38,299 nt of DNA from Gracilibacteraceae bacterium (GTDB lineage Bacteria; Bacillota; Desulfitobacteriia; Desulfitobacteriales; Syntrophobotulaceae). Shown here piece by piece: positions 12,948 through 29,356 of this stretch (position 1 is its first letter; every line of letters starts with the position of its first letter). The position numbers were made by a program, and so were the translations under genes. The stretch lies in the NCBI GenBank assembly GCA_031270805.1, contig JAISWK010000144.1, forward strand, positions 1 to 38,299. The letters are read 5' to 3'. Below the pieces are notes generated by a model that was not told where the DNA came from, did not search any database, and saw only the letters and a list, made by a program, of their open reading frames with translations.

Positions 12948-14171
12948 ATGGCGTTATTTAGGTATGAAGCGTTTAATATACAGGGGCAGGTCGTTACGGG
13001 CGAGATAAGCGCCGATACGCAAACGGCGGCTTTGAGCCGCCTGCAGGAAGGCGGTCTCACCGCTTATGATCTGCAGGAAACAAAAGAAAAAACCAAGAAA
13101 AAAAGTTCGGCCCTGTTCAGCGCCCGGAAAGTCACTTTCGGCGATCTTTCCGTGTTCAGCCGCCAGCTGGGCGTGATGATTAACGCCGGCATCCCGGTGA
13201 CGCGGGCGATCTCCACCTTGAGCAAGCAGACCTCAAACCCGACGATGGCCGGCGCGCTGGAGGCGATAGCCCGCGACGTGGAGGGCGGTTCCGGTCTCGG
13301 GGACGCCTTCGAGCGCCACCCCAAGGTTTTTAACGAATTGTACGTGTCGATGCTGCGGGCGGGCGAACTCGGCGGCATATTAGAAACGACGCTCTTGCGC
13401 CTGGCGGAGCAGCTGCGCCGGGACAAACAGCTGACCGATAGCGTCAAAAGCGCGATGAATTATCCGAAGATCATCATGATTTTTGCCTCGGTGGTTTTTC
13501 TGGCCATGCTGGTTTTTCTCGTGCCTATTTTTCAGGGCATGATGGTCGAAGGAGCGGAGGTACCGGCCATTTCCGCCTTTATTTTCGCCTGGTCGGCCAG
13601 TATCCGCAAATTCTGGTATTTCTGGATTCTCGGCGCCACCGTACTCGTGGTTATCCTGCTGACCTTTATCAGCAGCAAAACCGGACACCGGATTTACGAA
13701 AATCACAAATTGCACTTGCCGGTTTTCGGGGAGATCAACCTCAAGTCGGTTATCGCCCGGTTCTGCCGCACGCTGGCGACTTTGCTTGAGGGCGGCATCC
13801 CGATTGTCCAGGCGCTGCAGAGCGCCGGCCCCACCGCCGGCAGCGACGTGCTGGCCGCAGTGGTGGCGACGGCGGCCCATCAGATTGAAGAAGGGCGCAG
13901 CATATCGGCCCCGCTGGAACAGAGCGGCGTGTTCCCGCCGATGGTCACCCACATGATAGCCGTCGGCGAGGAATCCGGTACGCTGCCGGAGCTGCTCGAC
14001 CGGATCGCTGATTTTTACGAGGAGGATGTGGCGCTGCTTTCGCGCCAGCTGGCGCAGCTGCTGGAGCCATTCATGCTGATCGGTATCGGTCTGCTGGTCG
14101 GCAGCATGCTCATCGCCATGTATATTCCCATGTTCTCATCGCTGGTCGGCAGCGCCGCCACCGGCGGTTGA
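12948..14171 (+). CDS. pilC: Type IV pilus inner-membrane platform protein
   Basis: PilC is the polytopic platform that the PilB and PilT motors act on. The 407-residue protein begins FRYEAFNIQGQVVTGEI and has the two repeated T2SSF domains: one with SVFSRQLGVMINAGIPVTRAI, the second with ARFCRTLATLLEGGIPIVQAL. Membrane segments lie near residues 175-195, 223-243 and 375-397. The region KEKTKKKSS (about 46-54) is a basic linker. The ATG follows CGGAGGTT. Position between pilT and pilM is typical. Confidence 0.95.
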   Translation: MALFRYEAFNIQGQVVTGEISADTQTAALSRLQEGGLTAYDLQETKEKTKKKSSALFSARKVTFGDLSVFSRQLGVMINAGIPVTRAISTLSKQTSNPTMAGALEAIARDVEGGSGLGDAFERHPKVFNELYVSMLRAGELGGILETTLLRLAEQLRRDKQLTDSVKSAMNYPKIIMIFASVVFLAMLVFLVPIFQGMMVEGAEVPAISAFIFAWSASIRKFWYFWILGATVLVVILLTFISSKTGHRIYENHKLHLPVFGEINLKSVIARFCRTLATLLEGGIPIVQALQSAGPTAGSDVLAAVVATAAHQIEEGRSISAPLEQSGVFPPMVTHMIAVGEESGTLPELLDRIADFYEEDVALLSRQLAQLLEPFMLIGIGLLVGSMLIAMYIPMFSSLVGSAATGG

Positions 14172-14205
14172 GAAAACGGAGTGATTATTTGGAAAGAGGT
14201 GTGGT

Positions 14206-15138
14206 ATGGCCAAAAAAATGATCGGCCTCGAATTCGACGTACATGAACTGCGGGCGGTGGAAATGAACGGCGACCGGGTGGAGGCTTACGGCAAGGCGCC
14301 GATGGCGCCGGGCGTGGTCGAAGAAGGGTTTATCGCCCGGCCGGAGGAAGCCGGTCGGGCCTTGAAAGCCCTGCTGAAGCAGAATTCGTTCAAATGCACC
14401 GACGTCTGTATCGGCGTCAACAATCAGAACGTCATTGTGCGTATGGCCTCGTTCCGGAAGATGACGCCGGAAAAGCAGCGCAACCTCATAATGCTCCAGG
14501 CGCAGGAATTCATCCCCCTGCCGCTGGCGGAGCTGCAGCTGGACTATGTTCCCTGTCAGACGCGCATGAACGGGCAGGAGGAATTTCTGAACGTCCTCCT
14601 GGTAGGCGCGCGCAAAAAAATGCTGCAGGAGATCATGCATGTCGCATCAAGCGCCAAACTGCTCATCCACGACATCGACGCCGGTCTGCTGGCGGCGGGC
14701 CGGGCCGCTCTGGCCGCCAGCCGGGCGGAAGTATTCGGGGTACTGCAATTTGAAAGCGGCACCTTGAATATTCTGATATACAACGGCGAAACGATCGCTT
14801 TTGCCCGCTCCGTACAGATGGCCCCGGGTATCCGGCAGGAGATCATCCGCGGCGGCGCGCTGACGGAAATGTGCCTGACTTCGCTGAAAGAGGTGCTGGC
14901 GGCGGAAATGACCTCCTCCGTCAATTACTATCGGATGCAGAACGATAAACCGCTGGAGGAGGTCTATTTGTACGGTATGGCCAGCGAGGACGAACTGCAG
15001 CGCATAGCGACGCATGTGGGCGGACAGATAGGCGTCAATGTCAGCGTACCCCGGCTGTACCAGCATGTGGCCAGTATGCTGCCCGTACAGATATACGCCG
15101 GCTGTATCAGCCTGGCCAAAAAAGGAATGGGGGTGTAA
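14206..15138 (+). CDS. pilM: Type IV pilus assembly protein PilM (actin-like)
   Basis: PilM is a cytoplasmic actin/FtsA-fold protein that binds the N-terminal tail of PilN. The 310-residue protein starts MIGLEFDVHELRAVEM and shows the family segments LIMLQAQEFIPLPL, LNVLLVGARKKML and HDIDAGLLAAGRAALA. The late segment YLYGMASEDELQRI corresponds to the usual Gly-rich strand. Length is slightly below the ~350 residues of Gram-negative PilM. AGAGGTG precedes the ATG. It is followed after one base by pilN. Confidence 0.9.
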   Translation: MAKKMIGLEFDVHELRAVEMNGDRVEAYGKAPMAPGVVEEGFIARPEEAGRALKALLKQNSFKCTDVCIGVNNQNVIVRMASFRKMTPEKQRNLIMLQAQEFIPLPLAELQLDYVPCQTRMNGQEEFLNVLLVGARKKMLQEIMHVASSAKLLIHDIDAGLLAAGRAALAASRAEVFGVLQFESGTLNILIYNGETIAFARSVQMAPGIRQEIIRGGALTEMCLTSLKEVLAAEMTSSVNYYRMQNDKPLEEVYLYGMASEDELQRIATHVGGQIGVNVSVPRLYQHVASMLPVQIYAGCISLAKKGMGV

Positions 15139-15139
15139 T

Positions 15140-15697
15140 ATGTACGGCGTCAGCTTATTACCGCCTGAATATAAATCGCAGCTGCAGCAGGAAAAGCGCA
15201 CGCGGCTGATTGTACTCGTCGCTATCCTCGTGGCGGCCCTGATGCTGCTGGTTTTTCTCACCACGATGGTCTTCAAGTGGAGATATTCTATGGAGATAAG
15301 CGCGCTGCAAGTGGAGCAGGATCAGCTGCAGACCAGGATCAACGCGCTGAAAGACGAGGAGACTATCGTTAACGACTTGACGAACACCAAGCTGAATATT
15401 AACAACTTGGTGGCGTCCGCCAGCAAATTGAGCACCAATATCATCAGGATCGGGGACGCTCTGCCGGACGAGGTGACCGTCACGGAAATAGCGCTCGTAT
15501 ATGATTTGCAGACCATTGCCGGCACATTGAAATTGCAGGCCCCGGACGAACTGACGCTGCGGCAGTGCGTCGACCGGCTGCGCCTGCTGGACGGGGTGAC
15601 GAGCGTCGGCTGGAGTCAGCTGGTGACCACAGGCGAAGGTCTGACCCCCGTGAGTTGCACCGTGACGATGCAATTGCCGCGCGTCACGTTGAATTAA
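15140..15697 (+). CDS. pilN: Type IV pilus assembly protein PilN
   Basis: PilN is a bitopic inner-membrane protein of the alignment complex. The 185-residue protein begins MYGVSLLPPEYKSQLQQEK, in which the S-L-L-P-P-E phrase is the usual PilM-binding tail (INLLP in other species). One membrane segment lies at about 22-45. A coiled-coil stretch (about 55-85) and a small ferredoxin-like domain containing TVTEIALVYDLQTIAGTLKL follow. The start at 15140 is one base after the pilM stop, with GGGGGTG upstream; the frame is open earlier but inside pilM. Confidence 0.88.
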   Translation: MYGVSLLPPEYKSQLQQEKRTRLIVLVAILVAALMLLVFLTTMVFKWRYSMEISALQVEQDQLQTRINALKDEETIVNDLTNTKLNINNLVASASKLSTNIIRIGDALPDEVTVTEIALVYDLQTIAGTLKLQAPDELTLRQCVDRLRLLDGVTSVGWSQLVTTGEGLTPVSCTVTMQLPRVTLN

Positions 15698-15710
15698 GGA
15701 AGGAGAGAGC

Positions 15711-16292
15711 ATGAGCGTCAAATTGCCGAAAACCACGATAATTGCCCTGGCGCTGCTTTTCCTCGCGATCGTGGCCATGATTGCCCTGTCGGTGCTGAAC
15801 TATCTTTCGTTTTCCGGTCTGAGCGCCGATCTCGCCACCCTGGAAACGGCTGTCCGCGCTGATAACGCCCGCGTACAGGAACTGCAGGCGGCGATCACTA
15901 CAAAAGAACAGCTGCAGCAGGAACTGGTGGGGCTGAAACGGCGCGTGCCGGATGATCCGTCCACGATGGATTTTACCTACCTGCTGAAAGAACTGGGCTG
16001 GCGCAATCAGGGGGAAATCCGCGACGTCCAGTTCAGCGAGGCGGTACTGGACGGTTCTCTGCTGCGGCATACCTTCACGATGAAGTACGACGGCAAATAT
16101 TACCCGTTGGCCAACCTGCTGGAGGATATTGAGCGCCTGGAACGTTTTGTCCGCATCGGCAAGGTTACGCTGAAAAACGGCTCCGACACGGCGGCCATCG
16201 AAGTGGAAATAACGGCGGATGTATTCAGCCAGCCGCTGCCTGAACCGGTGGCGGAAGAAGCAGCGGCGGAAGCAGCGCCGGCGACGCAATAA
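15711..16292 (+). CDS. pilO: Type IV pilus assembly protein PilO
   Basis: PilO pairs with PilN in the inner membrane and contacts PilP. The 193-residue protein has one membrane segment at about 9-33, a coiled coil with LQAAITTKEQLQQELVGLKRRVP, and a ferredoxin-like domain with FTMKYDGKYYPLANLLEDIERLERFVRI, the most recognisable PilO segment. The C-terminus is an Ala/Glu/Pro-rich tail. AAGGAGAG precedes the ATG. It sits between pilN and pilB. Confidence 0.88.
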   Translation: MSVKLPKTTIIALALLFLAIVAMIALSVLNYLSFSGLSADLATLETAVRADNARVQELQAAITTKEQLQQELVGLKRRVPDDPSTMDFTYLLKELGWRNQGEIRDVQFSEAVLDGSLLRHTFTMKYDGKYYPLANLLEDIERLERFVRIGKVTLKNGSDTAAIEVEITADVFSQPLPEPVAEEAAAEAAPATQ

Positions 16293-16326
16293 ACCGAGGC
16301 GGCGGCGCTTCCCAAGGAGTGGTTAA

Positions 16327-18003
16327 ATGGCGGTAAGAGTGAATCTGGGGCAGAGACTTCTCGATTTGGGCATCGTGACTGAAGACCAGATTCAGGAGGC
16401 CCTCAGAGTACAGGCGGAAACAAAGGAAAAACTCGGCACGATTCTGACGCGGCTCGGTTTTTGTTCGGAAGAAGACGTGGGCCGGGCTATGGCGACCAAC
16501 CTGGGTCTCGGCTTTATTTCCCTGAACAACCGGGGCGTGAATATGGACGTGGCCAACATGGTCACGCCGGTTTTCGCCCAGAAAAATATGCTTCTGCCCG
16601 TCGCGATTGAGGACGGCTGTCTTATGGTCGCGATGCAGAATCCCAATGATATCATGGCCGTAGACAATCTCCGCCTCATGACCGGTTATACCGTAAAGCC
16701 CATCGTGGTTTCCGACGAGGAACTGCGAGCCGCGATCGAGCAGTTTGTCAATATGAGTACGAACGTGGTGGAGAAGGAGGAAGAACCGGAAGCCGCGTCG
16801 GCGATGGAGACGGAGGCTATAGCCGGTGGCGACGACGAATCGCCGGCCGTGCGTTTTGTCAACCAGATCATTGCCAACGCCGTGCGCTCGGGCACGAGCG
16901 ATATTCATTTTGAGCCGCAGGAAAAAGTGCTGCGGGTGCGTTTCCGGATTGACGGCGTTCTGCACGAGGTGGCCCAGCAGCCGGTGCGGATTCATCCTTC
17001 CGTCTCCTCGCGCGTCAAGGTCATGGGCGGCATGGACATCGCCGAGAGGAGAATCCCCCAGGACGGGCGGGCCACGGTGCGCATGTCGGAAAAAACTTTT
17101 GATATCCGCATAGCCAGTCTGCCATCCGTCTACGGTGAAAAGCTGACGCTGCGTATGTTGGAGCGCTCGAACAAGGTTATGACCATGCCGCAGCTCGGCT
17201 TTCCGCCCGACCAGTACGAACGCTTCTCGAAAGCGATCCGGCTGCCCTACGGGTTTATTCTCGTCACCGGCCCGACCGGCAGCGGCAAGTCCACGACGCT
17301 GTACGCTTCGCTGGCGGAAGTCAATTCGGAAGACCGCAATATTATTACGCTGGAGGATCCGGTCGAGCGCCGCATGGCCGGCATCAACCAGATTCAGATG
17401 AATGCCCGGGCCGGCATGACCTTTTCCTCCGGTCTGCGCTCCATTTTGCGCAGTGACCCCGATATTCTGATGATCGGGGAGATCCGCGACGAAGAAACGG
17501 CGAAAATAGCCGTAGAATCGGCCCTGACCGGCCACTTGGTTTTTTCGACCCTGCATACGAACGACGCGCCCAGTTCGGTGACCCGCCTGGGTGACATGGG
17601 CGTGGAACCGTTCCTGACCTCGTCCTCCCTCCTGGCCGTGGTGGCCCAGCGTTTGCTGCGCGTCCTCTGTCCGCGCTGCAAGACCGCCTATACCCTGACG
17701 CGCGAGCAGCTGCTGGAAAGCCTGCCGGATTTTCCCCTGGAACCGGGGCAGCAGGAAGTGAAGCTCTACCGGCCCAAAGGCTGCCTCTCCTGCAATAACA
17801 CCGGCTACGCCGGCCGGCGCGGCGCCTATGAATTCCTCGTCATATCCGATCAGATCCGGCGCATGATCCTGGAGCGGGCTTCCACACATGAAATCCGCGA
17901 CATGGGCATCCGGCAGGGGATGCGCACGCTGCGCATGGAAGGACTGCTCAAGGTGCAAAACGGAGAAACCTCCGTAGAAGAACTGCTGCGGACGATTGTT
18001 TGA
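16327..18003 (+). CDS. pilB: Type IV pilus extension ATPase
   Basis: PilB/GspE-type ATPases drive pilin polymerisation. The 558-residue protein has an N-terminal MshEN-like domain (GQRLLDLGIVTEDQIQEAL and GFCSEEDVGRAMATNLGL), which in some homologues binds c-di-GMP. Walker A GPTGSGKST is at 315-323, the Asp box at 341-347, Walker B ILMIGEIRDEE at 380-390 and the His box at 402-410. The zinc site is Cys448, Cys451, Cys486 and Cys489 (CPRC and CLSCNNTGYAGR). The ATG follows AAGGAG. It is the last gene of the operon. Whether this N-domain binds c-di-GMP cannot be decided by eye. Confidence 0.95.
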   Translation: MAVRVNLGQRLLDLGIVTEDQIQEALRVQAETKEKLGTILTRLGFCSEEDVGRAMATNLGLGFISLNNRGVNMDVANMVTPVFAQKNMLLPVAIEDGCLMVAMQNPNDIMAVDNLRLMTGYTVKPIVVSDEELRAAIEQFVNMSTNVVEKEEEPEAASAMETEAIAGGDDESPAVRFVNQIIANAVRSGTSDIHFEPQEKVLRVRFRIDGVLHEVAQQPVRIHPSVSSRVKVMGGMDIAERRIPQDGRATVRMSEKTFDIRIASLPSVYGEKLTLRMLERSNKVMTMPQLGFPPDQYERFSKAIRLPYGFILVTGPTGSGKSTTLYASLAEVNSEDRNIITLEDPVERRMAGINQIQMNARAGMTFSSGLRSILRSDPDILMIGEIRDEETAKIAVESALTGHLVFSTLHTNDAPSSVTRLGDMGVEPFLTSSSLLAVVAQRLLRVLCPRCKTAYTLTREQLLESLPDFPLEPGQQEVKLYRPKGCLSCNNTGYAGRRGAYEFLVISDQIRRMILERASTHEIRDMGIRQGMRTLRMEGLLKVQNGETSVEELLRTIV

Positions 18004-18095: not shown

Positions 18096-18124
18096 ATGAC
18101 AAAAAGCGCCACTTGGGCTATAAT
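18096..18124 (+). promoter_or_regulatory. Promoter of the small anchored protein gene
   Basis: ATGACA at 18096-18101 (five of six matches to TTGACA) and a perfect TATAAT at 18119-18124 are 17 bases apart. Transcription would begin near 18131, about 53 bases before the ATG at 18184. A terminator at 18478-18521 ends the unit, so the gene appears to be transcribed alone. Confidence 0.7.
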
Positions 18125-18183
18125 TAAAGATGTACCTTTGCGCGAGCGAATGGGCGGGAAAACAAGAGAACGGAGGAAGAATA

Positions 18184-18429
18184 ATGGCAAGTTTGGCTGG
18201 ATTCGCCGAAGGCGCGGCGGCAGTGGGGGGAATCGCCTTGGAAGTGGGCGGCTTTGCCGTGGACGTCGCGAAAGAAAAGATCAAAGAATTTTCGGATGAC
18301 CCGTCGGGAAAGAGCGGTGAACTTGTAGCCAAAGGCAAGGAAATTGTCCAGAAGTATCCTAATGTCGTGGCCGGCGCCGGCGCAGTCGTCGGTATTCTTA
18401 TCCTGAGGAAGTTATTTTTCGGAAAATAA
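18184..18429 (+). CDS. Small tail-anchored protein, unknown function (ElaB/YqjD-like layout)
   Basis: The protein has 81 residues. Residues 1-30 are Ala/Gly-rich and amphipathic, 31-57 are charged and helical (AKEKIKEFSDD, KGKEIVQKYP), and 60-77 form one hydrophobic segment ending RKLFFGK. A charged helix followed by Tyr-Pro and a Gly/Ala-rich membrane anchor resembles the layout of ElaB/YqjD (DUF883) proteins, which anchor to the inner membrane and bind ribosomes in E. coli. The resemblance is of layout, not proven homology. The ATG follows CGGAGGAAG. It has its own promoter and terminator between pilB and ilvC, and in-frame upstream codons from 18130 lack a ribosome binding site. Confidence 0.75.
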   Translation: MASLAGFAEGAAAVGGIALEVGGFAVDVAKEKIKEFSDDPSGKSGELVAKGKEIVQKYPNVVAGAGAVVGILILRKLFFGK

Positions 18430-18477
18430 GCCGTTTCAAGCCCCGCCGGGAAAAGCCGGCGATTCCTTACGTGACGG

Positions 18478-18521
18478 AAGCTGAATGAATGACTGACTGA
18501 CGGCGTACATTCAGCTTTTTT
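18478..18521 (+). terminator. Rho-independent terminator after the 81-residue gene
   Basis: AAGCTGAATG at 18478-18487 pairs perfectly with CATTCAGCTT at 18508-18517, and a T-run of six closes the structure at 18516-18521. It separates the small gene from ilvC. Confidence 0.85.
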
Positions 18522-18593: not shown

Positions 18594-19586
18594 ATGGTGA
18601 GAATGTATTATGACAGCGACGCCGACTTGGGCGTCCTGCAGGGGAAGACGATAGCGGTCATGGGCTGGGGCAGTCAGGGCCACGCCCAGTCGCAGAATTT
18701 GCGCGATTCGGGCTTGGACGTAATTGTGGGGCTGCGCCCGGACAGCGCCAGGCGCCCCCAGGCGGAGGCGGCCGGACTGCGGGTGCTGACAGTGGCGGAA
18801 GCGGCGCGGGCCGCCGATATCATCCAGATTTTGCTGCCGGACGAGCAGCAGGCCAAGGTATACCGGGAGGAAATCGCCCCGGAACTCAAACCGGGCCGGG
18901 CTCTTATCTGCTCGCACGGCTTTAACATACATTTCGGCCAGATCGTTCCGCCGCCCGACGTCGACGTCCTCATGATCGCGCCGAAAAGTCCCGGTCATCT
19001 GGTGCGCCGCACTTTTGTCGAGGGCGCGGGTGTGCCCGGGCTGATCGCTGTGCATCAGGACGCGAGCGGCAACGCGTATAAGATCGGCCTGGCTTATGCC
19101 CGAGGTATCGGCTGCACGCGGGCCGGACTCCTGGAAACGACGTTCCGGGAAGAAACGGAGACGGATTTGTTCGGGGAACAGGTGGTGCTGTGCGGCGGCA
19201 TAACGGAGTTGGTGCGCGCGGGATTCGACACGCTGGTTGAGGCGGGCTACGCGCCGGAAAGCGCCTATTTTGAGTGTTTTCACGAGCTGAAACTGATCGT
19301 CGATCTCATGTACGAAGGCGGTATCGGCAAAATGCATTACTCCATTTCCGACACGGCCCAATACGGCGACATGATGATCGGGAAGCGCATTATCACGGAA
19401 GACACGCGCCGGGAAATGAAAAAAGTACTGGCTGAGATTCAAAGCGGCGAGTTCGCCAAGCAATGGCTGTTGGAAAACCAGACGGGCCGGCCCGTGTTCA
19501 ACGCCTTGACCAAAAGGGATGAGGGGCATCCGGTGGAAAAAGTCGGCCGGGAATTGCGCGGCATGATGGGCTGGCTGAACAAGTAA
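18594..19586 (+). CDS. ilvC: Ketol-acid reductoisomerase
   Basis: IlvC rearranges and reduces acetolactate or acetohydroxybutyrate with NAD(P)H, the second step of branched-chain amino acid synthesis. The 330-residue class I protein starts MYYDSDADL, has the dinucleotide loop [13 protein letters not shown] (24-36) and the metal-binding segments [16 protein letters not shown] and [15 protein letters not shown]. The coenzyme-choice loop reads [12 protein letters not shown]; its arginines and serine favour NADPH, but this is only an inference. GAAAGGA lies 14 bases before the ATG, a rather long gap. The usual neighbours ilvB, ilvN and leuA are absent. Confidence 0.95.
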
Positions 19587-20598: not shown

Positions 20599-22953
20599 AT
20601 GAAAGAGCAAACCGGACAATATAAGCGTCATTTTTGGCAAACGCCGAACCTGGCCCGGAAAACGCTGCTGATCATCGCTTTTGCGGCGGCGATCACGCTG
20701 CTCTTGTCTTCCGGGCTTATCGTGTCCGGGCAAAATATTTCCATCGGCGAACCCAGCCCGGAGCTGATTCGCGCCCCCTATGACCATGAAGTGACCGACA
20801 TGGTCACATACGAGCGGGAGGTCGAAGCGGTGCGCGCGGCTGTTCTCCCGGTCTATCGCGTGAACGAGGCCTTCGTTAATATGTTTGCCCAGCGTTTTCG
20901 CACTATGTTCGACGTCTTGATCACCCTGGCGGAAACACGGCCGGCCCTCGTGCGGGACAATCCGCCGCCGGTCGACGCCGGACAGGAGGAAGCGGTCGTG
21001 CTTCCCCCGGCCGAAGCCGCGGCGGAAGACGCGGGGCCGAAGGCCGAAGCTGCGGTGGAAGACACGGAACCGACGGCCGAAGCCGGGACGCCGGAGCCGC
21101 CCTCGGCGGCGGAGCGGCAGAGCGAAGTGGAAGCCCTGCGCGAGAGTAATTATTACGGGGTGCTGGCGGATGAGAGTTTCGCCGCCATTATGGCGATGAC
21201 GCCGGCGGAACTGAGAGCCGGACGGGACGAGGCCCTCTCGGCCATGCGCCAGGTGATGGAATCCGAGGAAGAAGGCGCGAGGACGGAGGAAGATCTGCCC
21301 CAACTGCAGGAGCGCGTGATGACGCGCGTTATGGGCGCCGACCTGCCGGCGCCGCTCATAGAGTTGACCGGCAGTTATGTCGGCCAGGAATTACTCTCGC
21401 CGACGCTGGTGATCGACCTCCAGGCCACGGAGTGGGCGCGGGAGCAGGCCGTCGCCTCTGTGACCCCGGAAGTGTACTACTATCGCGCCAATGAAAAAAT
21501 AGTCGGCCCGGGCGAAATCGTGAACGACCGTATTTTTGCCGCTTTAAGCGCCTACGGTCTGATCAGGACCGAGTCCATTCTCTGGCCGGTACTCGGTATT
21601 GCCCTGCTCGTACTTTTGGCCGTCGCCCTCACCATCACTCTGGCCCGGCAGATTTGCCCGCCCATAAAAGAACATTGGCAGAAGATGCTCATTATCGGCG
21701 TCCTGGAACTGGTGTTCCTGGTCGTCGCCTTCGGGCTTTTCAATATCAGCCTGGGCGGCGACGCCTGGGATAGTCTGCTTATTTTCCTGGTCCCGGCCGC
21801 CTGGACCACGATGACGGTGTCCATTCTGCTCGGCAGCCGCATGGCGGTGGTGGTCTGCGTGATTCAGGCCCTGTTTGTCGCCGTGCTGGCCGAACCGCAG
21901 GATTTCATGAACGCCGGCGGGGCCGACGACTTGGTCGTGCTCTTTTCCGGTCTTGTGGGCGCGCAGAGCGCGGCTCGCCTCAACCGGCGTTCGGACTTTG
22001 CCCGGGCCGCGCTTTTTGTCGGCCTGACGAATACGCTTTTTCTCTGCGCGCTGGAACTGCTGAGCGGCGGCGATTGGCTGCACCTGACCGCCGGACTGGC
22101 GGTCGTCGCCCTGGGGGCCGCGCTGACGATAGTGTTGACCATCGGCGCCCTGCCCGGATTTGAATTTTTCTTTAACATAACCTCTTCGGTGCGCCTGATC
22201 GAACTGGGCAACCCGAACAACCCGCTGCTTAAATCCCTGCTGATGGAGGCGCCCGGCACCTACCACCACAGCGTCATGGTCGGCAACCTGGCCGAGACGG
22301 CGGCGGAGGTCATCGGGGCCGATTCCGTTCTCGTGCGCATCGGCGCGCTGTACCATGATATAGGCAAGCTGAAGCGGCCCTATTTTTTCATTGAAAACCA
22401 GTTTTCCCGCGAAAATCCGCATGACCGGATCGCCCCGTCCCTCAGCGCGCTGATTCTGACTTCCCACACGAAAGACGGGGTGGAAATGGCCAAACAATAT
22501 AAACTGCCGGAGTCCATCTGCGCCATTATCCAACAGCATCACGGCGACAGTCTGGCGAAATACTTTTATCACAAGGCGCGAGAGGAAACGCCGGATATTT
22601 CTGAAGATATCTTTCGCTACTCCGGCCCCAATCCCCAGACCAGGGAGGCGGCGATCGTCATGCTGGCCGACAGTGTGGAAGCGGCCGTGCGGGCGGTCGG
22701 CGGCAGCAATCCGGGCAAAATAGAGGGTTTGGTGCGGAAGATTATCAAGGAAAAACTGGAAGAAGGGCATCTGGAGCAATGCGATCTCACTTTCCGTGAT
22801 TTGGATAAAATAGCCGTTTCCTTTGTCAAAGTGCTGCTGGGCATTTATCACACGCGGATCGTCTATCCGAACGCGCCCCCGGCGCGCAAAGCACTGAAAA
22901 AACCGCAGGAACCGCCGGAACCGCAGGCGGCAGGGGAGAGCGATGGAAATTGA
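20599..22953 (+). CDS. pgpH: 7TM-HD domain c-di-AMP phosphodiesterase, PgpH/YqfF type
   Basis: The family hydrolyses c-di-AMP to pApA. The 784-residue protein has an N-terminal membrane segment (about 21-43), an extracytoplasmic 7TMR-HDED domain up to about 310, seven membrane segments (about 330-535) and a cytoplasmic HD domain with YHHSVMVGN, ALYHDIGKLKRP and MLADSVEAAVR. An Ala/Glu/Pro-rich low-complexity insert occupies about 122-175 of the outer domain. The C-terminus is a Pro/Lys/Glu tail. The ribosome binding site is weak and the gene lies six bases after phoH, so translational coupling is likely. Its last bases overlap ybeY. Confidence 0.93.
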   Translation: MKEQTGQYKRHFWQTPNLARKTLLIIAFAAAITLLLSSGLIVSGQNISIGEPSPELIRAPYDHEVTDMVTYEREVEAVRAAVLPVYRVNEAFVNMFAQRFRTMFDVLITLAETRPALVRDNPPPVDAGQEEAVVLPPAEAAAEDAGPKAEAAVEDTEPTAEAGTPEPPSAAERQSEVEALRESNYYGVLADESFAAIMAMTPAELRAGRDEALSAMRQVMESEEEGARTEEDLPQLQERVMTRVMGADLPAPLIELTGSYVGQELLSPTLVIDLQATEWAREQAVASVTPEVYYYRANEKIVGPGEIVNDRIFAALSAYGLIRTESILWPVLGIALLVLLAVALTITLARQICPPIKEHWQKMLIIGVLELVFLVVAFGLFNISLGGDAWDSLLIFLVPAAWTTMTVSILLGSRMAVVVCVIQALFVAVLAEPQDFMNAGGADDLVVLFSGLVGAQSAARLNRRSDFARAALFVGLTNTLFLCALELLSGGDWLHLTAGLAVVALGAALTIVLTIGALPGFEFFFNITSSVRLIELGNPNNPLLKSLLMEAPGTYHHSVMVGNLAETAAEVIGADSVLVRIGALYHDIGKLKRPYFFIENQFSRENPHDRIAPSLSALILTSHTKDGVEMAKQYKLPESICAIIQQHHGDSLAKYFYHKAREETPDISEDIFRYSGPNPQTREAAIVMLADSVEAAVRAVGGSNPGKIEGLVRKIIKEKLEEGHLEQCDLTFRDLDKIAVSFVKVLLGIYHTRIVYPNAPPARKALKKPQEPPEPQAAGESDGN

Positions 22954-28285: not shown

Positions 28286-29356
28286 ATGGAAAGTATCCAG
28301 GCTACATTACTGGAAGCGCTGGCGCTGAACGCTTCCGATTTGCATCTTGTGCCGGGCATGCCGCCCGTTTTGCGTGTCAGCGGTCTGCTCCAACCGATGA
28401 AAGGCGCGCCGCCCCTGACGGCGGCGGACACGGCGGTGGTGGCCCGCGAGCTGCTGAACCGCCATCAGTGGGAACAATTGGAACTCAAAGGGGAAATGGA
28501 CGCCTCCGTCTCTTCGGTGGGGCATTTTCGCTGTCGCCTCAATGTGTTTCGCCAGCGCAACTCCTACAGCCTCTCCTTCCGGCTGCTGGATCAGAATATC
28601 AAATCCTTTGACTCCCTCGGTCTGCCCGAGATCATCAAAGAAATGTGCGTCATGGCCCGCGGGCTTATTCTGATCACCGGTCCGACGGGGACGGGCAAGA
28701 CCACGACCATCGCCTCCATGCTCCATTACATGAACCAGGTGCGCAACAGCCATATCGTGACATTGGAAGATCCCATTGAGTATACATACCAGCATGGGAA
28801 CTGCCTGATCAACCAGCGGGAGATCACGCAGGACACGGAGACTTACGCCTCGGGTCTGCGGGCCGCCCTGCGCCAGGACCCGGATGTAATCATGGTCGGG
28901 GAAATGCGCGACCTGGACAGCATCTCCATCGCCCTGACGGCGGCGGAGACGGGCCATCTCGTCCTTTCCACCCTCCACACCATCGGCGCGGCCAAGAGCA
29001 TCGACCGCATTATCGACGTGTTTCCCTACCAGCAGCAGCAGCAGGTGCGGATCCAACTGTCCATGGTGCTGCAGGGCATTGTTTCCCAGCAGCTGATTCC
29101 GGGCCGGGAGCCGGGCGCCCGCCACCTGGCCTCGGAGGTGCTGGTCGCCAATAACGCCGTGCGCAACCTGATCCGCAATAACAAAATTCACCAGGTTATT
29201 CAGGTGATTGAGACGAGCCGGGACTTGAAGATGCACACGATGGACTCCAGCATCGCCGCCCTGTACCAGGCGGGCAAGATCAGTTACGAGGACGCCCTGA
29301 TCTATTGCGTCGATCCGGACAGTCTGCAAAAACTGTTCGCCGGCAAGGCCTATTGA
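28286..29356 (+). CDS. Type IV pilus retraction ATPase, second copy (PilT/PilU-like)
   Basis: The 356-residue protein has Walker A GPTGTGKTT (132-140), the Asp box TLEDPIEY, Walker B DVIMVGEMRD, the His box GHLVLSTLHT and AVRNLIRNNKIHQVIQVIE near the C-terminus. It differs from the PilT at 11863 throughout, so it is not a recent duplicate. It lies between the pilin and the prepilin peptidase. It could be the main retraction motor or an accessory PilU-like one; sequence alone does not settle this. The ATG at 28286 is preceded by GTGTAAGGAAATAA, a modest site. Confidence 0.9.
   Translation: MESIQATLLEALALNASDLHLVPGMPPVLRVSGLLQPMKGAPPLTAADTAVVARELLNRHQWEQLELKGEMDASVSSVGHFRCRLNVFRQRNSYSLSFRLLDQNIKSFDSLGLPEIIKEMCVMARGLILITGPTGTGKTTTIASMLHYMNQVRNSHIVTLEDPIEYTYQHGNCLINQREITQDTETYASGLRAALRQDPDVIMVGEMRDLDSISIALTAAETGHLVLSTLHTIGAAKSIDRIIDVFPYQQQQQVRIQLSMVLQGIVSQQLIPGREPGARHLASEVLVANNAVRNLIRNNKIHQVIQVIETSRDLKMHTMDSSIAALYQAGKISYEDALIYCVDPDSLQKLFAGKAY

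Follow-up and report, generated by a model that had tools for sequence, protein, structure and literature searches.

A predicted tail-anchored small protein of one clostridial genus and its possible kinship with YqjD-type proteins

A short gene between a pilus ATPase and a biosynthetic enzyme raises two questions: whether it is a unit in its own right, and whether its product belongs with the ElaB/YqjD ribosome-anchoring proteins. The gene, here called X, lies on contig C189 of a draft genome of 2.69 Mb and 84% completeness, within the window (the whole stretch of DNA analysed, 38,299 nucleotides). A sequence-only reading of the window had described X as an independently transcribed anchored protein with an ElaB/YqjD-like layout, unexpected in this group of bacteria. 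We examined the gene and its control signals, the families its product might join, and the distribution of possible relatives and partners across related genomes.

Gene, control signals and neighbours

X (18184..18429, plus strand, ATG to TAA) encodes 81 residues and stands between a pilB-type ATPase gene with T2SSE and MshEN domains (16327..18003, plus strand) and ilvC, the gene for ketol-acid reductoisomerase (18594..19586, plus strand). Full-length orthologues with 73–74% identity occur in all four other genomes of the genus, and the ten orthologue pairs give dN/dS values of 0.125–0.217, indicative of purifying selection, with differences favouring third codon positions (154, 64 and 277 at positions 1, 2 and 3). 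These data confirm that X is a genuine gene, as the sequence-only reading had held. An alternative in-frame ATG at 18130 would give a product of 99 residues, and we place the start at 18184 because protein conservation and the ribosome-binding site mark that codon. X was detected in five of 25 genomes of the family at E ≤ 0.01, all of one genus, and from the sequences searched it appears to be known so far from this single genus of uncultured Clostridia. A scan of genome contigs confirmed one relative among the matches listed; weak single-sequence matches in 18 more genomes (E 0.016–0.97), mostly in long reading frames, were discarded, and in the two loci inspected (L007 and L009) the matched short frame lay antisense to a longer frame.

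The control signals of X are conserved throughout the genus. A promoter at 18096..18124 (plus strand) combines a −35 box ATGACA, a 17-bp spacer and a −10 box TATAAT and fits the consensus at 11 of 12 positions; a scan found one site of such quality against 0.7 expected by chance. The match alone is weak evidence and without significance, and it is conservation that makes the site convincing: (A/G)TGACAAAA...TATAAT with a 17-bp spacer stands upstream of X in all five genus genomes, the −35 box reading ATGACA in the window genome and GTGACA in the four relatives, and the −10 box ends 38–59 bases before the start codon. The Shine-Dalgarno sequence ACGGAGGAAG (18170..18179, plus strand) keeps the core GGAGGAA in five of five genomes. 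Downstream, an intrinsic terminator at 18478..18521 (plus strand) consists of the stem AAGCTGAATG/CATTCAGCTT, about 10–12 pairs long, and a T run; it folds at −22.2 kcal/mol (z −4.96, equalled by 0 of 200 shuffles) and was detected by folding, being unlisted by a terminator scanner that accepted loops of 3–8 only. The hairpin recurs in all four orthologues, two of them with a G-U exchange, at z scores of −4.25 (G001), −3.42 (G002), −1.92 (G003) and −1.46 (G004), with 0, 1, 11 and 17 of 200 shuffles as good, so that the G003 and G004 folds are each weak alone. The promoter, ribosome-binding site and terminator named in the sequence-only reading are thus all upheld. Between the X stop codon and the terminator, a GC-rich extra hairpin (CGCCGG/CCGGCG) at 18444–18461 corresponds to an alignment gap in the four relatives.

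Comparison of the flanks separates X from its neighbours. In all five genus genomes ilvC follows X (the G003 contig terminates within ilvC), and the upstream neighbour differs between genomes: G003 has in this place what is presumably a gene for a transglutaminase-fold protein, and G001 a divergent gene that we take to be ftsK-like, both by reading alone. By tblastn, the relatives' fetched X flanks contain no pilB match, the G002 flank of just 138 bases being too short to tell. Because the upstream gene changes while promoter and terminator travel with X, the control elements belong to X, pilB is incidental and independent transcription is supported. An accessory role in a neighbouring system, either the type IV pilus through pilB or branched-chain amino-acid synthesis through ilvC, would fit the constant position of ilvC and the presence of pilB before X in the window, but it sits badly with the changing upstream genes, with the conserved terminator that stands between X and ilvC and with second copies of X that do not adjoin ilvC; the genus is shallow, so the ilvC linkage may be inertia. 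Varying neighbours and the terminator effectively rule this role out. An RNA element at the locus was also rejected, with just two sub-threshold Rfam matches.

The window further contains type IV pilus-type genes (T2SSF, PilM, PilO and PilB) at 12948–18003, a second T2SSE ATPase gene further downstream at 28286–29356 and, as the second gene past ilvC, a gene for a 7TM-HD protein (7TMR-HDED, 7TM and HD domains) at 20599–22953.

The protein, its second copy and the DUF883 family

In the X protein, residues 4–38 (18193..18297, plus strand) form a Gly/Ala-rich, weakly amphipathic predicted helix in a low-confidence model and include the invariant residues E9 G10 A11, V14 G15 G16, A18 and E20. Residues 61–79 (18364..18420, plus strand), which follow an invariant P59, form a hydrophobic C-terminal tail with the peak Kyte-Doolittle value of the protein (2.03, compared with up to 1.58 for residues 11–29). 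The amphipathicity of residues 4–37 was equalled by 118 of 5,000 shuffles, and across the nine family members, which are not independent of one another, by 38–189 of 5,000. Structure models are poor, with pLDDT values of 53.5 and 64.0.

The same genome encodes a second copy of X, 35% identical, on contig C157 (L002:1492-1773); judged by the reading of its start, the next gene may encode arginyl-tRNA synthetase. Second copies also occur in G001, G003 and G004, and the draft genome G002 yielded none; a promoter-like TGGACA-17-TATGAT lies upstream of the second copy in all four genomes that have one. Across X and the second copies, the invariant positions extend to G23, A25, P40, E46, K50 and G70 in addition to the eight N-terminal residues and P59 named above.

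Searches with X against Pfam and NCBIfam gave no match, and single relatives gave sub-threshold matches only. The likeness to E. coli YqjD, ElaB and YgaM, which belong to DUF883 (PF05957 and PF19029), was examined with both domain models and with a profile of the three E. coli proteins. PF05957, the DUF883 N-terminal domain, is absent from X and its eight relatives, and in the genome of X the sole match to the Pfam DUF883 model is unrelated and sub-threshold (E 0.81). PF19029, the DUF883_C glycine-zipper tail, gave no hmmscan match in nine of nine members up to E 10, a negative limited by HMMER filters that discard most matches above about E 0.1. With a cut-off of E ≤ 0.05, the E. coli profile recovered X from none of the five genomes of the genus. 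By these searches, the proposal that X is a ribosome-anchoring member of DUF883 fails on membership.

The C-terminal tail gives a different picture in profile–profile comparison. We built a profile of X and its second copies (nine members, hereafter A1), and hhalign aligned it with the E. coli YqjD/ElaB/YgaM profile at a score of 29.8 over the C-terminal 43 columns, above the maximum of 24.1 in 200 shuffles. As a single sequence against the E. coli profile, X was outscored by one of 276 true decoys and by the three template proteins themselves; the second copy from its own genome was noise-like, with 96 of 279 decoys as good. X also resembles the E. coli proteins in having one tail anchor, placed at the C-terminus behind a proline, and several copies per genome, and E. 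coli elaB and ygaM, like X, are distant from yqjE.

The C-terminal profile match, together with the association of the E. coli YqjD N-terminus with ribosomes described in the available part of PMC10502375, would fit a true ElaB/YqjD-type hibernation protein with its C-terminal tail in the membrane and its N-terminus on stationary-phase ribosomes. By analogy such a role is conceivable, and we consider it unlikely: the DUF883 N-terminal domain is not matched, leaving the putative ribosome-binding part unrecognisable in X, and the N-terminal part of X is Gly/Ala-rich and hydrophobic, not charged. In Pseudomonas PAO1, moreover, the portion of PMC11302039 available to us describes no growth change on deletion or overexpression of an operon with the same layout as the E. 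coli one and ties that operon to envelope stress.

Other origins gained no support from the databases. A phage or plasmid origin of X was rejected, with no matching phage protein family in PHROG (best among relatives E 0.011) and no match among phage or plasmid records at E ≤ 0.1. A profile search of solved structures was uninformative, its best match being chain SAKe6BR (E 0.0058) and the next a designed helical repeat. In the open-licence literature we found no account of an X-like protein in this group.

Relatives at the YqjD position

Profile searches across the class suggest a closer set of relatives. In a search of 82 class genomes with a cut-off of E ≤ 1e-3, A1 matched just two proteins outside the genus (E 6.9e-5 and 1.4e-4). 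Each is encoded by the leading gene of a three-gene cluster whose layout resembles the E. coli order yqjD, yqjE, yqjK. These first-gene proteins have 92–102 residues and a C-terminal tail. The second gene of each cluster encodes about 91 residues with a weak match to PF07332, the family of E. coli YqjE, at E 2e-6 and 9e-6, just below the curated cut-off; the third has no Pfam match, so its kinship with YqjK is unsupported. A search with one first-gene protein identified six genomes with such a YqjD-position protein (G023, G027, G031, G032, G034 and G052), which amounts to six of 82 class genomes and three of 27 genera. Among the five clusters read through, those of G023, G027, G032, G034 and G052, four have the third gene and G023 has the first two genes only. 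In a wider search, three of 398 evenly drawn genomes of the phylum had a YqjD-position protein and no new relatives appeared. The statement that an ElaB/YqjD-like layout is unexpected in this group is therefore half true, as YqjD-position proteins stand beside YqjE-like genes in a small part of the class.

Alignment statistics extend the similarity beyond the tail. Profile A1 and the profile of the six YqjD-position proteins aligned by hhalign at a score of 32.5 over 70 columns, compared with a mean of 13.0 (sd 3.1) and a maximum of 29.9 in 300 column shuffles of A1, 12.8 for the reversed profile and a maximum of 23.2 in 300 shuffles of the YqjD-position side. Against the YqjD-position profile, all nine X-family members scored above all 279 membrane-tail decoys (lowest member 21.4, best decoy 20.0), the decoys being 81-residue pieces of six-frame reading frames that are not proven proteins. 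The decoy set was reduced from 286 to 279 by removal of near-duplicates; it excludes the X family and YqjD-position proteins and includes the three E. coli DUF883 proteins, hence the 276 true decoys used above. X and the YqjD-position proteins are also alike in size, in all-helical low-confidence models and in a conserved proline (KYP and THP compared with EHP, QHP and KNP) that precedes the hydrophobic C-terminal tail. They differ in that X is about 10–20 residues shorter and has a distinct EGAxxVGG N-terminal motif.

The link holds in one search direction. A1 reached only two of the six YqjD-position proteins, and the reverse search, with the YqjD-position profile as query, came up empty in all five genomes of the genus at E ≤ 10. 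The remote homology search called for by the sequence-only reading thus produced a profile link to YqjD-position proteins and neither a Pfam or NCBIfam family nor a reverse match, and the ElaB/YqjD likeness stands for the C-terminal tail and through the YqjD-position proteins of related genomes while DUF883 membership falls. The YqjD-position proteins are themselves distant from the E. coli family: the E. coli profile finds none of them at E ≤ 0.05, its hhalign score against them is 21.5, with one of 200 shuffles higher (23.0), and Pfam DUF883_C matches three of six at E 0.07 or worse.

Short Gly/Ala-rich hydrophobic tails easily look alike, and X may possibly be a genus-specific tail-anchored protein of independent origin whose YqjD-type tail reflects convergence of short glycine-rich membrane helices, with an unrelated function. 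The absence of a family match, the empty reverse search, the restriction of X to one genus of its family and the failure of the E. coli profile to find X all agree with such an origin. It is harder to reconcile with an alignment that covers 70 columns, beyond the tail, and exceeds 600 shuffles and every tail decoy, and with the finding that the sole two outside-genus matches in 82 genomes share a gene position. We regard independent origin as a tentative alternative and favour, at a probability of roughly one half, the reading that X is a diverged, relocated YqjD-type C-tail-anchored protein with a YqjE-like membrane partner and a role in slow growth or stress.

YqjE-like genes and a candidate membrane module

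The distribution of YqjE-like genes bears on the proposed YqjD-type kinship. At E ≤ 1e-6, 11 of the 82 class genomes carry a YqjE-like gene, and these are exactly the five with X and the six with a YqjD-position protein, with no exception at the thresholds used. Counted by genus, the co-occurrence covers four of 27 genera, and X itself contributes one genus; its operon part is partly expected, as those genes are adjacent. We estimate at about 1 in 24 the chance that the sole genus with X would also be the sole genus with a YqjE-like gene that lacks the usual upstream partner. All eight aligned YqjE-like proteins match PF07332 at E ≤ 1, the best at 2e-7. In the genome of X, PF07332 matches other than that on contig C52 are all below the cut-off.

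In contrast to the YqjD-position proteins, X lies apart from the YqjE-like gene and has its own promoter and terminator. In the genome of X, the YqjE-like gene, a weak match to PF07332 (L047:1501-1949, on contig C52, with equivalent contigs in the rest of the genus), overlaps a small gene, and X adjoins ilvC on another contig. No YqjD-position gene was found upstream of the YqjE-like gene on reading G000, G003 and G004, or near it by tblastn in the flanks fetched from each of the five genus genomes (207 bases in G002).

Under the favoured YqjD-type reading, X would be a short C-tail-anchored inner-membrane protein that corresponds to the product of the leading gene in a YqjD-YqjE-YqjK-like module. 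Its tail would insert into the membrane, and its Gly/Ala-rich helix with invariant acidic residues may lie on the cytoplasmic side of the membrane or pack against it. Together, X and the YqjE-like protein would make up a small assembly in the membrane that serves during slow growth or envelope stress, the conditions under which the counterparts in E. coli and Pseudomonas are expressed. We favour a membrane role with a YqjE-like partner because X keeps the tail and not a recognisable N-terminal domain. A more specific history is tentative: in this one clostridial genus the YqjD part might have been rebuilt, leaving its operon, losing the recognisable ribosome-binding domain, acquiring a promoter of its own as well as a Gly/Ala helix that lies along the membrane, and duplicating, so that two solo genes would serve the YqjE-like partner. 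If true, a rebuilt YqjD component would mean that the membrane role is separable from ribosome binding. Clostridial proteins that lack a recognisable DUF883 N-terminal domain yet stay tied to a YqjE-like gene would point to the membrane tail together with YqjE, not to ribosome binding, as the conserved core.

The nearest described parallel is the Pseudomonas PA3040-PA3042 operon, which, in the available part of PMC11302039, likewise combines a YqjD-like gene, a YqjE-like gene and a third small gene; there they form a three-gene operon, whereas in the X genus the YqjE-like gene and X occupy separate loci. According to the same part of that source, the PA3040-3042 promoter is induced by envelope stress and in stationary phase, and a clinical Pseudomonas isolate, unlike PAO1, needs the operon for normal growth. 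In E. coli, overexpression of YqjD or YqjE arrests growth, as stated in the available part of PMC10746276.

The third small gene of the X genus might occupy the YqjK position; hhalign aligned 24 columns at a score of 23.5, obtained without a control. Clusters of the yqjD-yqjE-(third gene) type, weakly or not recognised by Pfam, also occur at L038, L039, L043, L044 and L046 in a few clostridial genera, with the first two genes only at L046.
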